The notes under the pieces were generated by a model. That model was not told where the DNA came from. It did not search any database and saw only the letters and a program-made list of their open reading frames with translations. Both the position numbers and the translations under genes were made by a program. From Planococcus wigleyi (GTDB lineage Bacteria; Bacillota; Bacilli; Bacillales_A; Planococcaceae), in NCBI RefSeq assembly GCF_014836985.1, contig NZ_JACSPU010000001.1:62001-126000 (forward strand): DNA of 64,000 bases, written 5' to 3'. Each line of letters starts with the position of its first letter. Position 1 is the stretch's first letter. Positions 6,843 through 45,615 of this stretch are shown in pieces.

Positions 6843-7220
6843 ATGAAGTTTTTCTTGATTGCCGGAGCGGTTAACGCTCTTCTGTCTGTAGCATTTGGTG
6901 CGTTCGGTGCACATTTGCTGGAAGGGCGCGTTGCGGACAAGTATTTGGATACATGGCAAACGGCCGTGCAGTATCAGATGTTCCATGCAGTCGGGTTGAT
7001 GGTCATCGCCATCTTGATGAGCTCATCTCTGCTTGGGCCGCTTAGTTCATTGAACTGGGCAGGTTATTTGATGCTTGCTGGAATCGTCATTTTTTCAGGG
7101 AGCTTATATGTCCTGAGTTTAACAGGCATCAGCATTCTCGGTGCCATCACGCCAATCGGCGGCGTTGCATTTATCGCCGCTTGGGTGATGATCATCGTTG
7201 CCGCAGTGAAAGCATTGTAA
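6843..7220 (+). CDS. ywdK: YwdK, DUF423 membrane protein
   Basis: This 125-aa protein has four hydrophobic segments and the DUF423 hallmark FGAFGAHLLEG in the first loop, with YQMFHAVGLM in the second segment. It is widely distributed in bacteria; its function is unknown. It lies 20 bp after ywdI behind AGAGGAAG and is followed by a strong terminator, so ung-ywdI-ywdK probably form one transcript. Confidence 0.85.
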   Translation: MKFFLIAGAVNALLSVAFGAFGAHLLEGRVADKYLDTWQTAVQYQMFHAVGLMVIAILMSSSLLGPLSSLNWAGYLMLAGIVIFSGSLYVLSLTGISILGAITPIGGVAFIAAWVMIIVAAVKAL

Positions 7221-7229
7221 TGATAGAAG

Positions 7230-7265
7230 GAGGGCCATCCGTTTTACGCGGATGGCCCTCTTTTA
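7230..7265 (+). terminator. Terminator after ywdK
   Basis: A perfect 12-bp stem GAGGGCCATCCG / CGGATGGCCCTC (7230-7241 with 7249-7260) with a 7-nt loop is followed by TTTT. Confidence 0.9.
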
Positions 7266-7272
7266 TGGATGC

Positions 7273-7364
7273 GGAAAGTAAATAGGACGATATGGAAAGT
7301 AATTCCTCTGATTTGGAAAGTATTCATGCCGAAATAGAAAGTATTTTACTTGAAACGGAAAGTA
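7273..7364. repeat. 21-nt-period array with core GGAAAGTA
   Basis: Five copies of GGAAAGTA (the fourth AGAAAGTA) start at 7273, 7294, 7315, 7336 and 7357, exactly 21 nt apart. They are separated by 13 variable bases that often carry GA near their end. There is no start codon or ribosome site, and a TAG interrupts the frame that would read W/R-K-V heptapeptides. It fills part of the gap between ywdK and hemQ. Confidence 0.85.
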
Positions 7365-7417
7365 TATCCATTTAACTGGGAAAACGGCGTGTGAAACCGT
7401 TGCTTATTCCATGGCGT

Positions 7418-7508
7418 GGTGCGGTCGCAGCCGTTTGAGGTGCGGAAATGGGTCGGCGAGGTGCGGTTACACCCGTTTGAGGTGCGGAAATCACTCCTCG
7501 AGGTGCGG
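7418..7508. repeat. 21-nt-period array with core GGTGCGG
   Basis: Five exact copies of GGTGCGG start at 7418, 7439, 7460, 7481 and 7502, again exactly 21 nt apart. Units alternate: copies 1 and 3 share GGTGCGGT with a CCCGTTTGA- or GCCGTTTGA-like tail, while copies 2 and 4 share GGTGCGGAAAT. Read in one frame they give Val-Arg heptapeptides, but no start or ribosome site is present. The function is unknown. Confidence 0.85.
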
Positions 7509-7524
7509 TCCCATACAAATCAAA

Positions 7525-7552
7525 CAAAAAAAGCCGCCCAAAGAGGCGGCTT
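7525..7552 (-). terminator. Terminator of hemQ
   Basis: The stem AAGCCGCC / GGCGGCTT with a 6-nt loop is followed on the minus strand by a run of seven T, directly after the hemQ stop. Confidence 0.88.
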
Positions 7553-7566
7553 TCAGTATATATTGA

Positions 7567-8316
7567 TTAAACTTCCAGAAACTTAACGGTTCTTTCGGCA
7601 TCTAGTCTTGTACCGACATAGAATGAACCGAATTCTGCGTAACGCGCGCTGACTTCGTCAAAACGCATTTCGTAGATCAATTTCTTGAATTGAAGAACGT
7701 CGTCTGCGAACAAAGTAACGCCCCATTCGTAGTCGTCAAAACCGACAGATCCAGAAATGATCTGTTTTACTTTGCCGGCATAGCTGCGGCCGATTTTGCC
7801 GTGTGACAGCATCAATTCTTTGCGGGTATCCATCGGAAGCATGTACCAGTTATCGTCGCCGTCGCGGCGTTTGTCCATCGGGTAAAAGCAGATGTACTGT
7901 GAACGCTGAAGTTCAGGGTACAAACGCGCGCGGACATGCGGGTTCTGGTATGGATCTTCGTCTGATTTGCCAGCCAGATAGTTGGAAAGCTCAACGACAG
8001 AAACGTAAGAGTACGTAGGAACCGTGTAGGCAATCAACGTCAGCTTGTTGTATTCTGTTTCAAGTTCATTCAATTCGTCCATTGTTTCACGCAGCATCAT
8101 CAGCATCAAGTCAGCTTTTTGGCCAACAATTGAATACAACGCATGTGCGCCGGTTTTATTTTCATCGGCTTGGTTGATTTTGTCCATAAATGCCTGGAAT
8201 TCATCGATCGCGAATTGGCGTTCTTCTTCCGTCAGCATTTTCCACGTTACCCAGTCCATCGAACGGAAATCGTGCAGGACGTACCAGCCGTCTAATGTAA
8301 TCGCTGCTTCATTCAT
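7567..8316 (-). CDS. hemQ: Coproheme decarboxylase HemQ
   Basis: This 249-aa chlorite-dismutase-family protein makes protoheme from coproheme by two peroxide-dependent decarboxylations, the last step of the coproporphyrin-dependent pathway of Gram-positives. Visible family motifs are the Tyr/Lys region [19 protein letters not shown] and the proximal heme-ligand segment [17 protein letters not shown] with its His. The C-terminus [13 protein letters not shown] is typical. The ATG at 8316 follows AAAGGAG. It is divergent from lipL. In B. subtilis hemQ (ywfI) and lipL (ywfL) flank pta, which is not here. Confidence 0.93.
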
Positions 8317-40656: not shown

Positions 40657-41229
40657 ATGAAAATTCGTGAATTATCTAAAGAAGAACTAATAGAAGAGTC
40701 ATTTGTTGACTTGACATATGCAATGCTTGAAGAAACACATGAAACGAAAACGTATGCAGAATTGGTTGAAGAAATCGAGAAATTGCTCAACTTATCAAAA
40801 GAGGAAATGAAAGATCGTCTGGTTCAATTCTACACAGATTTGAATATCGACGGCCGCTTTTTGATTTTGGGCGAAAACCGTTGGGGCCTTCGCGAATGGT
40901 ACCCGGTAGAGCAGATCGAAGAAGAATCCGCTCCGACTGTTAAAGCACGTAAGAAGAAAGCGAAAGTCGCTGACGATGAAGGCTTTGACGATTTGGATGA
41001 ATTGGCATTGGAAGACGAGTTGGAATTCGAAGACTTCGGTGAAGACGACGATGACGACGAGGATGATGATGACGAAGTGATCAAATCACCTGTCGAAGTG
41101 GAAGTCCTGGATTTCGACGCAGACGATGACGACGAAGAAGACGTCGATGTTTTGGTAGAAGATCTGGATGGCAACATCATCGACGACGAAGATGAAGACG
41201 ATGAAGATGAAGAAGACGATTTGAAGTAA
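40657..41229 (+). CDS. rpoE: RNA polymerase delta subunit
   Basis: This 190-aa protein has an N-terminal globular HARE-HTH domain (1-90, with ETKTYAELVEEIE and WGLREWYP) and a highly acidic Asp/Glu-rich disordered tail. It matches the B. subtilis delta factor that increases RNA polymerase recycling and selectivity. The start MKIRELSKEEL at 40657 is chosen over an in-frame GTG at 40648, which is too close to AAGGGA. rpoE-pyrG order is conserved. Confidence 0.95.
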   Translation: MKIRELSKEELIEESFVDLTYAMLEETHETKTYAELVEEIEKLLNLSKEEMKDRLVQFYTDLNIDGRFLILGENRWGLREWYPVEQIEEESAPTVKARKKKAKVADDEGFDDLDELALEDELEFEDFGEDDDDDEDDDDEVIKSPVEVEVLDFDADDDDEEDVDVLVEDLDGNIIDDEDEDDEDEEDDLK

Positions 41230-43571: not shown

Positions 43572-43931
43572 TTGAAAACCATTTTAATTGTAGATGACCA
43601 ACCGGGAATCCGGCTGTTGTTAAAAGAAGTGTTCAGCAAAGAAGGATACCAGACGTCCACTGCCGGAAGCGGCAAAGAAGCACTCGAATTGGTGCAGGAA
43701 GTTTGCCCGGACCTGGTGTTGTTGGATATGAAGATTCCAGGTATGGACGGCATTGAAATATTGAAGCGATTGAAGAAGAACAAGCCCTCAGTCCACGTCA
43801 TCATGATGACCGCATACGGCGAATTGGATTTAATTAAGGAATCGATGAACTGGGGAGCTGAGCGCTATTTTACCAAGCCTTTCGACGTCTTTGAGGTGCG
43901 CGATGCCGTGAATGGTCTATTGCAGCAGTAA
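43572..43931 (+). CDS. spo0F: Response regulator Spo0F
   Basis: This 119-aa stand-alone receiver domain has acidic pocket Asp8-Asp9 (LIVDDQPG), phospho-acceptor Asp52 in [11 protein letters not shown], the switch Thr in IMMTAYGE, and Lys in [10 protein letters not shown]. It lacks an output domain and in Bacillus relays phosphate from kinases to Spo0B. The start is TTG with AAAGGAG upstream. The organism may be a non-sporulating genus, so its present role is open. The downstream neighbour fbaA is as in Bacillus. Confidence 0.9.
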
Positions 43932-44015
43932 ACAGCGAAGAAGTAGCGTAAGTACAGGGTTTTTGATATAGTATAAAGGATATTTGCTTTAAACATTGCT
44001 GAGGAGGAATTCTAA

Positions 44016-44873
44016 ATGCCATTGGTTTCAATGAAAGAAATGATGATAAAAGGAAAACAAGAAGGATATGCAATCGGTCAATTCAATTTAAACAACCTGG
44101 AGTTCACACAAGCCATTCTTCAAGCTGCACAGGAAGAGAATTCTCCGGTAATCTGCGGAGTTTCAGAAGGAGCAGCACGTTACATGGGTGGATTCACGAC
44201 AGTTGTTAATATTGTCAAAGGATTGATGCATGATTACAAAATCACCGTTCCCGTGGCAATCCACTTGGATCACGGTTCGAGCTTTGAAAAATGTAAGGAA
44301 GCGATTGATGCAGGATTCACTTCCGTAATGATTGATGCGTCTCATCACCCGTTTGAAGAAAACATTGAAATCACTAAACAAGTTGTAGAATATGCGCGAC
44401 AACATAATGTATCCGTGGAAGCGGAATTGGGAACTGTCGGCGGACAGGAAGACGACATTATTGCTGATGGCGTTATTTATGCCGATCCAAAAGAATGCAA
44501 GCAGCTGGTTGAACAGACTGGAATTGATTGCTTGGCGCCGGCTCTTGGTTCAGTCCATGGCCCTTATAAAGGCGAACCGAATCTTGGGTTTACTGAAATG
44601 GAAGAAATTTCACAGCAATGCGACGTTCCGCTTGTATTGCACGGTGGTACAGGAATTCCAACTAAAGATATTCAACGTGCCGTTTCTCTTGGTACATCGA
44701 AAATCAACGTCAACACAGAAAGCCAGATCACTTCAGCACAAGCCGTACGCGAGGTTTTGAACAACGACGCGGATGTCTATGATCCCCGCAAATACATGGG
44801 ACCAGCCCGCGAAGCAATCAAAAAGACTGTAATCGGCAAAATGCGTGAGTTTGGAAGTTCAGGAAAAGCATAA
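44016..44873 (+). CDS. fbaA: Class II fructose-bisphosphate aldolase
   Basis: This 285-aa zinc aldolase has catalytic Asp and zinc His in [25 protein letters not shown] and a second zinc site [12 protein letters not shown], with INVNTESQ binding phosphate. It splits fructose-1,6-bisphosphate in glycolysis and makes it in gluconeogenesis. The ATG at 44016 follows GAGGAGG. It sits in the fbaA-tal-murA2-glpX-rho string found in B. subtilis. Confidence 0.96.
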
Positions 44874-44894
44874 TAACGACACAAAAAAAGATGG

Positions 44895-44928
44895 GAGAGA
44901 AGCGTCCGAAAGGCGCCTTCTCTTTTTC
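44895..44928 (+). terminator. Terminator between fbaA and tal
   Basis: The stem GAGAAGCG / CGCCTTCTC (one bulge), with an inner TCC-GAAA-GG loop, is followed by TTTTT. Some read-through into tal is likely because tal has its own strong ribosome site only 25 bp later. Confidence 0.75.
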
Positions 44929-44952
44929 CCGTCATACTGGAGGAGAAAAATA

Positions 44953-45615
44953 ATGAAATTTTTCATCGATACAGCAAACTTTGACGAAATTAAAGAAGCA
45001 CACGCCTGGGGAATCCTTTCCGGCGTTACAACAAACCCATCTTTGGTAGCAAAAGAGAAAAACGTTTCATTCCATGACCGCCTGAAAGAAATTGCGGCGC
45101 TTGTTGATGGTTCAATCAGCGGAGAAGTGATTGCCCTTGATGCAGAAGGCATGATCAAAGAAGGCCGTGAATTGGCTGATCTTGCGCCGAACATCACAGT
45201 GAAATTGCCAATGACACCAGACGGATTGAAAGCTTGTTCAGTACTTGCTTCAGAAGGCAAAAAAGTTAACGTTACATTGATTTTCAGTGCAAACCAGGCA
45301 TTGCTTGCAGCGCGTGCCGGAGCGGCATACGTTTCGCCATTCCTTGGACGCCTGGACGACATCGGACATAACGGCATGGACTTGATTTCAACAATTGCTG
45401 AAATCTTTGCTATCCATGATATTTCTTCAGAGATCATTGCTGCTTCAATCCGCCATCCACAGCACGTAACGGAAGCTGCATTGAATGGTGCACATATCGC
45501 TACGATGCCGATTAAAGTAATGCACCAAATGTTCAAGCACCCGTTGACAGATCAAGGAATCGATGCATTTTTGGCTGACTGGGAAAAACGTTCAGTAGAA
45601 GACGGTGTAAAATAA
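44953..45615 (+). CDS. tal: Transaldolase (small, TalC/fructose-6-phosphate aldolase-like)
   Basis: This 220-aa subunit of the short transaldolase group begins [16 protein letters not shown]. It has the Schiff-base Lys in [12 protein letters not shown] and [14 protein letters not shown]. It moves a dihydroxyacetone unit between sugar phosphates in the pentose-phosphate pathway. The start at 44953 is behind TGGAGGAG. It corresponds to B. subtilis YwjH. A long in-frame extension upstream overlaps fbaA and is not real. Confidence 0.93.

Follow-up and report, generated by a model that had tools for sequence, protein, structure and literature searches.

Between the convergent genes ywdK and hemQ of Planococcus wigleyi lie two short tandem arrays that share a 21-nt step and differ in core. 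Does some process fix the period and leave the sequence free, or is the sequence constrained as well? Positions are those of the window – the whole 64,000-nt stretch that was analysed – unless a genome or locus is named. The left partner, ywdK (DUF423; an ORF at 6843..7220, plus strand; Pfam PF04241, E 5e-31), and the right partner, hemQ (chlorite dismutase family; an ORF at 7567..8316, minus strand; Pfam PF06778, E 2e-69), leave a gap at 7221-7566. After ywdK this gap contains, in order, a hairpin with a T tract, array A, array B and the hemQ terminator. The hairpin (GGGCCATCCG-TTTTACG-CGGATGGCCC-TCTTTT; 7230..7265, plus strand), which is read from the sequence and absent from the list of the simple terminator scan, is the probable ywdK terminator; the hemQ terminator (7529..7554, minus strand) comes from the terminator scan, and both arrays sit between the two. 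Array A (7268..7383, plus strand) has the core GGAAAGTA at 7273, 7294, 7315, 7336 (as aGAAAGTA) and 7357, and a terminal unit GTATATCCATTTAACTGGGAAA; as 7-mers, GGAAAGT stands in step 21 at 7273, 7294, 7315 and 7357, with aGAAAGT at 7336. A arrays often close with a conserved unit, GTATATCCAnnTAACTGGAAA (for example window 7357-7383), which contains a small inverted repeat (TCCA...TGGA) and is common to several A variants and species. Elsewhere in the window, TRF reports short GAT/GAC/GAA repeats of periods 9, 12 and 15 (41029-41220), probably an acidic low-complexity protein stretch.

Array B (7416..7512, plus strand) consists of five GGTGCGG cores with alternating spacer types. The sequence-only reading of this DNA had placed exact cores at 7418, 7439, 7460, 7481 and 7502, and all five are there at a step of 21: they form four consecutive 21-step pairs at G000:C10:69418-69508 (reversed-pattern control: 0), and TRF returns 7413-7510 with period 42 and score 133. 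Chance is excluded, because the expectation for five exact 7-mers in register is about 5e-11 per genome and because 21 is effectively the sole repeat lag in the 400 kb that were sampled. That the neighbouring array shares the step also holds, array A (GGAAAGT) adjoining array B. To call the two cores unrelated was too strong: the first unit of array A (ATGCGGAAAGTAAA) and the AAAT-type units of array B (GGTGCGGAAAT) overlap in TGCGGAAA. The alternation of unit types is real within array B, where the order is T / AAAT / T / AAAT / T and mean spacer identity is 0.21 between adjacent units vs 0.62 between next-but-one units; as a general rule it fails, and a 42-bp higher-order period across arrays was rejected, being confined to a minority of them. 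In that minority, alternation reflects duplication of 42-bp unit pairs. The alternation of array B in the hemQ gap is common to this genome, G037 and G044, and is therefore older than the split of those species.

The 21-nt arrays of the ywdK-hemQ gap are no local oddity: they belong to a genome-wide phenomenon of dozens of dispersed arrays. A lag spectrum, based on exact 7-mers found three times at equal lag (lags 12-63), was calculated from a 400-kb sample of the P. wigleyi genome, while whole-genome counts were obtained from pattern searches. The sample held 17 clusters at 21, six at 42 and one at 61, and zero exact 7-mer triples at any other lag within 12-63. Cores in this genome include GGAAAGT (family A), GGTGCGG (B) and TTCATGTA (D). 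The 21-nt step is common to at least five core families, and a sixth has a step of 20. Genome G031 (400 kb; 13 clusters at 21, one at 12, one at 20) carries ACACCCGGG (E), the 20-nt family ATTTGTGG (G) and variants of A; family C (TTAGTTGCGGTTAAACC) occurs in P. halotolerans and in part of the hemQ gaps. The 240 kb sampled from G008 gave 13 clusters at 21 plus one long 20-nt array. A nearly homogeneous CGCGCGT array of 20-nt units, found at about 2761321 of G008:C1 and about 2665418 of G006:C1, far exceeds the customary 3-7 units. G018, a Planococcus species whose subgroup lacks A and B pairs, had no 21-nt clusters in 400 kb.

Pairs of GGANNGTA at 21 nt are present in 39 of the 46 genomes of the genus; array-bearing genomes have ~4 to 50 of them, where the reversed control gives 0-2. 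In several of the 39 there is just one such pair, which may be due to chance. Most genomes of the genus that bear arrays also contain GGTGCGG-21 pairs, with a maximum of 28 in one genome; beyond the genus these pairs are sparse, bar one genome with 46. Other Planococcaceae genera have GGTAGAATAAAT and CGCGGGTATT at step 21, the CGCGGGTATT arrays with a 42-nt alternation of their own; a further genus of the family has the core CGGGTGCGGAGAGGAAACGRG, and Oceanobacillus halophilus has TTGGTGCGGTTGATAGAAGGA. Two other genera, sampled at 60 kb each, yielded no 21-nt arrays. A GC-rich pattern scan across genomes matched mostly in high-GC bacteria; its loci of use came from Planococcus (L054, L076, L107), Planomicrobium (L129) and Oceanobacillus (L146), and the lag control run on these loci is biased to 21 by the way they were chosen.

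The arrays are inherited vertically, with gain and loss of units. Read by eye, the hemQ-adjacent gap contains an array or a remnant in 29 of 30 genomes, the families differing, and the 21-nt periodicity is kept in these relatives. One orthologous tandem gap has family D in P. wigleyi and E in G031; the core family at an orthologous position can thus differ between species. Within family A the inner dinucleotide of the core is biased by genome and mostly uniform inside one array: pairs in G006 are 43 CA and 0 AA, those in P. wigleyi 19 AA and 4 CA. Intact units at the hemQ locus read AA throughout in P. wigleyi, G031, G034 and G002, and CA in G006, G008 and G011, as they do in G044 save for the last unit (CT); across this AA/CA change the spacers are, by eye, recognisably alike unit by unit. 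This is as expected if the A cores of one array change in concert. A separate case is a NERD-domain gene (L209:3929-4954; G000:C10 about 43929-44954) with A arrays on both flanks: in G037 the locus and both flanking arrays are swapped for a non-alignable version with another A variant, as if the gene and its two arrays had been exchanged as a single cassette.

Substitutions were counted in ungapped orthologous arrays, divided into 10-nt core, spacer and 60-nt flanks. Between G008 and G006, differences fall at 1/130 core, 32/143 spacer and 77/433 flank positions, and the reciprocal comparison gives 4/150 for core and 36/165 for spacer; one array aligned between P. wigleyi and G031 gives 1/40 and 8/44. 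The rate of change of the GGA-NN-GTATT core is thus 7- to 29-fold below that of the spacers, whose rate resembles that of the flanks, and all alignable arrays point in the same direction (Fisher p 2e-14 to 5e-5 for A, 0.001 for B). Registers were anchored on intact query cores, which possibly hides changes on the query branch and at most about halves the core rate: a bias far smaller than the gap between core and spacer. The A core is therefore under purifying selection, and so, on weaker data, is the B core; to assume it for every core family would be an extrapolation, the strong data being those for A, and D, E and G not being alignable. The proposal that a mechanism fixes period and not sequence therefore survives in part. 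The step is indeed common to several families, to several genera and to orthologous gaps with different cores; the cores, however, are selected while the spacers drift, and a sequence-blind mutational mechanism is therefore discounted in favour of a constraint on core plus spacing.

The arrays are intergenic and enriched between convergent genes. Of the 57 intergenic regions with arrays in the stretches that were sampled, 19 are convergent, vs 14% of intergenic regions overall (p 1e-4 with orthologues counted apart; p 0.05 for P. wigleyi and G008 only); the gene calls come from a simple hexamer model, which makes these contexts approximate. Arrays lie beyond terminators, occur in divergent gaps too, and take either orientation between convergent genes; in tandem gaps 22 run with the genes and 6 against them, and a polar function, or one at the RNA level, would account for this bias as well. 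Most A arrays of G006 and G008 fall within the origin-proximal two thirds of the chromosome; origin-proximal placement as a rule was suggestive in G006, was not seen in G013 or G023, and was dropped.

Each unit comprises a core of about 7-14 bp and a spacer of 7-14 bp. Successive A cores are separated by 21 (132 cases), 20 (18), 22 (1), 41-42 (14), 62-63 (4), 31 (2) or 11 nt (2), and successive B cores by 21 (102), 42 (15) or 63 (13); D is looser, with 29, 39-40, 81-82 and 103 as well. Register is intact across a missing or mutated unit, and half-turn spacings are nearly absent (for A, the two at 31 and the two at 11). Since 20-21 bp is two turns of the double helix, the cores come to lie on the same side of the DNA, a pattern that would be expected for cooperative binding along one helical face. 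Solo cores outside arrays show no excess over background.

With roughly even odds (about 0.5), then, we read the arrays as helically phased, iteron-like sites at transcription-unit boundaries to which a putative protein binds cooperatively. An oligomerising DNA-binding protein – or a set of paralogues, one per core family – would bind along one face and polymerise on the phased sites, and the resulting nucleoprotein strip would mark or block the boundary, most likely as a roadblock or insulator or as a chromosome-organising site. New units would arise when one or two existing units are duplicated, which would account for the alternation, and selection would retain the units whose core is intact and in phase. 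The step is fixed, the cores several, the A core selected, the spacers neutral-like, the placement at boundaries and the descent vertical; from this we infer protein binding, strip formation and a boundary role. A wider version is tentative: a family-wide set of rapidly diversifying DNA-binding factors, each with its own core, might form strips phased at two turns at the boundaries of transcription units, as an insulator or chromosome-organising code. In it the word would be free and the geometry conserved, cores being replaced over time and differing from species to species at a given gap, with step and position retained.

Alternatively, the arrays might be minisatellites, selfish or neutral: 21-bp repeats inside a MITE-like element that spread into gaps between terminators where constraint is lacking, with the step kept by slippage and with no host function. 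Such elements should lie where constraint is least, and between terminators they do. The near-homogeneity of some arrays (G011, G027 and Oceanobacillus), the near-identical copies with common flanks (L013/L014, L019/L022) and the conserved terminal unit of array A fit this reading as well. We nevertheless consider it rather unlikely: purifying selection in orthologous arrays is confined to the core, slippage would homogenise spacers along with cores, one step serves several unrelated cores, and solo cores are not in excess. No terminal inverted repeats or target-site duplications were seen by eye around the arrays, and empty sites were not alignable.

An RNA-level role is less probable again. 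Here read-through or 3'-end transcripts would present repeated single-stranded motifs to an RNA-binding protein, in the manner of a CsrA sponge for the GGA cores, and the co-orientation in tandem gaps, the GGA within core A and the plus strand of array B, which folds worse than its shuffles (z +2.7) and so stays open, are all consistent with this. Against it, arrays stand past terminators, divergent gaps have them as well, and between convergent genes they point either way; cores D and E and the T-type units of B have no GGA; and phasing at 20-21 and 42/63 has no obvious RNA reason. A structured RNA or known RNA family was rejected: fold z-scores of +0.3, -0.5, +2.7 and -0.7 indicate no stable fold, and every Rfam match was below gathering score.

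That the arrays are genuine plasmid iterons with a Rep_3 initiator as their reader is very improbable. The 21-bp unit, the 3-7 copies and the phase dependence do match iterons (PMC4980987), but Rep_3 genes are absent from the array-rich G006, G008, G010, G031, G037 and G044, and several are present in G001 and G042, neither of which has more than one A pair; Rep_3, which does not track the arrays across genomes, was rejected as the binder. Plasmid and phage records gave no convincing matching array, and an origin from either was set aside: one viral contig matches core A, and a match on a Planococcus lenghuensis plasmid is inside an NlpC/P60 gene. Equally remote is descent from heptad (coiled-coil) repeat genes, for although 21 nt is a multiple of three and makes seven codons, and one frame of array A reads xESIxxE with a stop in the terminal unit, the A and B units have stops in all six frames, none kept open, at rates near those of column-shuffled controls, the arrays are intergenic with no surrounding gene, 20-nt steps occur too, and the most conserved A columns run through all codon positions, so that coding repeats were rejected.

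The open-access literature yielded no description of these arrays, and none of any system with several cores at one step, nor is such a system known to us. The nearest in life history are the STAR elements of Staphylococcus, intergenic direct repeats of a 14-bp GC-rich motif, T(G/A/T)TGTTG(G/T)GGCCC(C/A), with spacers of at least 40 bp and a unit of about 50, whose loci expand and contract, whose spacers follow lineage, whose locations are species-specific and whose function is unknown (PMC3532100). The present arrays likewise combine a short conserved motif with locus-specific spacers and variable unit number in intergenic direct repeats, but differ in their cores (GGTGCGG and GGA-NN-GTATT), their strict 20-21 bp step, their spacers of 7-14 bp, which measure 11-14 bp at the step of 21, their several cores per genome and their measured contrast in selection between core and spacer. 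Iterons of theta-replicating plasmids are head-to-tail asymmetric sites of 17-22 bp in 2-7 copies, bound in a phase-dependent manner, with cooperativity lost when two sites stand half a turn apart (PMC4980987). Our arrays are direct repeats of that size, phase-locked at 20-21/42/63; unlike iterons they occupy many chromosomal gaps instead of one origin, use several cores and show no Rep_3 correlation. The BrickBuilt MITE of Porphyromonas gingivalis is dispersed, with tandem repeats of about 23 nt and distinct end units (PMC4596501), and so resembles dispersed arrays with a terminal unit, but it has terminal inverted repeats and no spacers, whereas here spacers are diverged and cores selected. 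The TAACTGA repeats of Beggiatoaceae, with a binder that is unknown, are 7-nt repeats directly upstream of start codons (PMC4679880); they too are many sets of short intergenic direct repeats, whereas ours have a 21-nt step and lie mostly downstream of genes. Unlike a CRISPR-like array, in which repeats of 20+ bp separate unique spacers of similar length, these have cores and spacers of 7-14 bp each and are inherited vertically. They are thus STAR-like in life history and iteron-like in architecture, with a defining feature of each missing.

Short intergenic repeats are commonly dismissed as junk or as single-family curiosities. Here the several families of one genome, and the different ones of its related genera, arrive at a common geometry, with measurable purifying selection on the core. 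The lag spectrum of exact k-mer triples, combined with the core-against-spacer substitution test, provides a general finder for such systems, and it becomes possible to test for phase-locked protein strips between bacterial transcription units, and for the protein that would read them.
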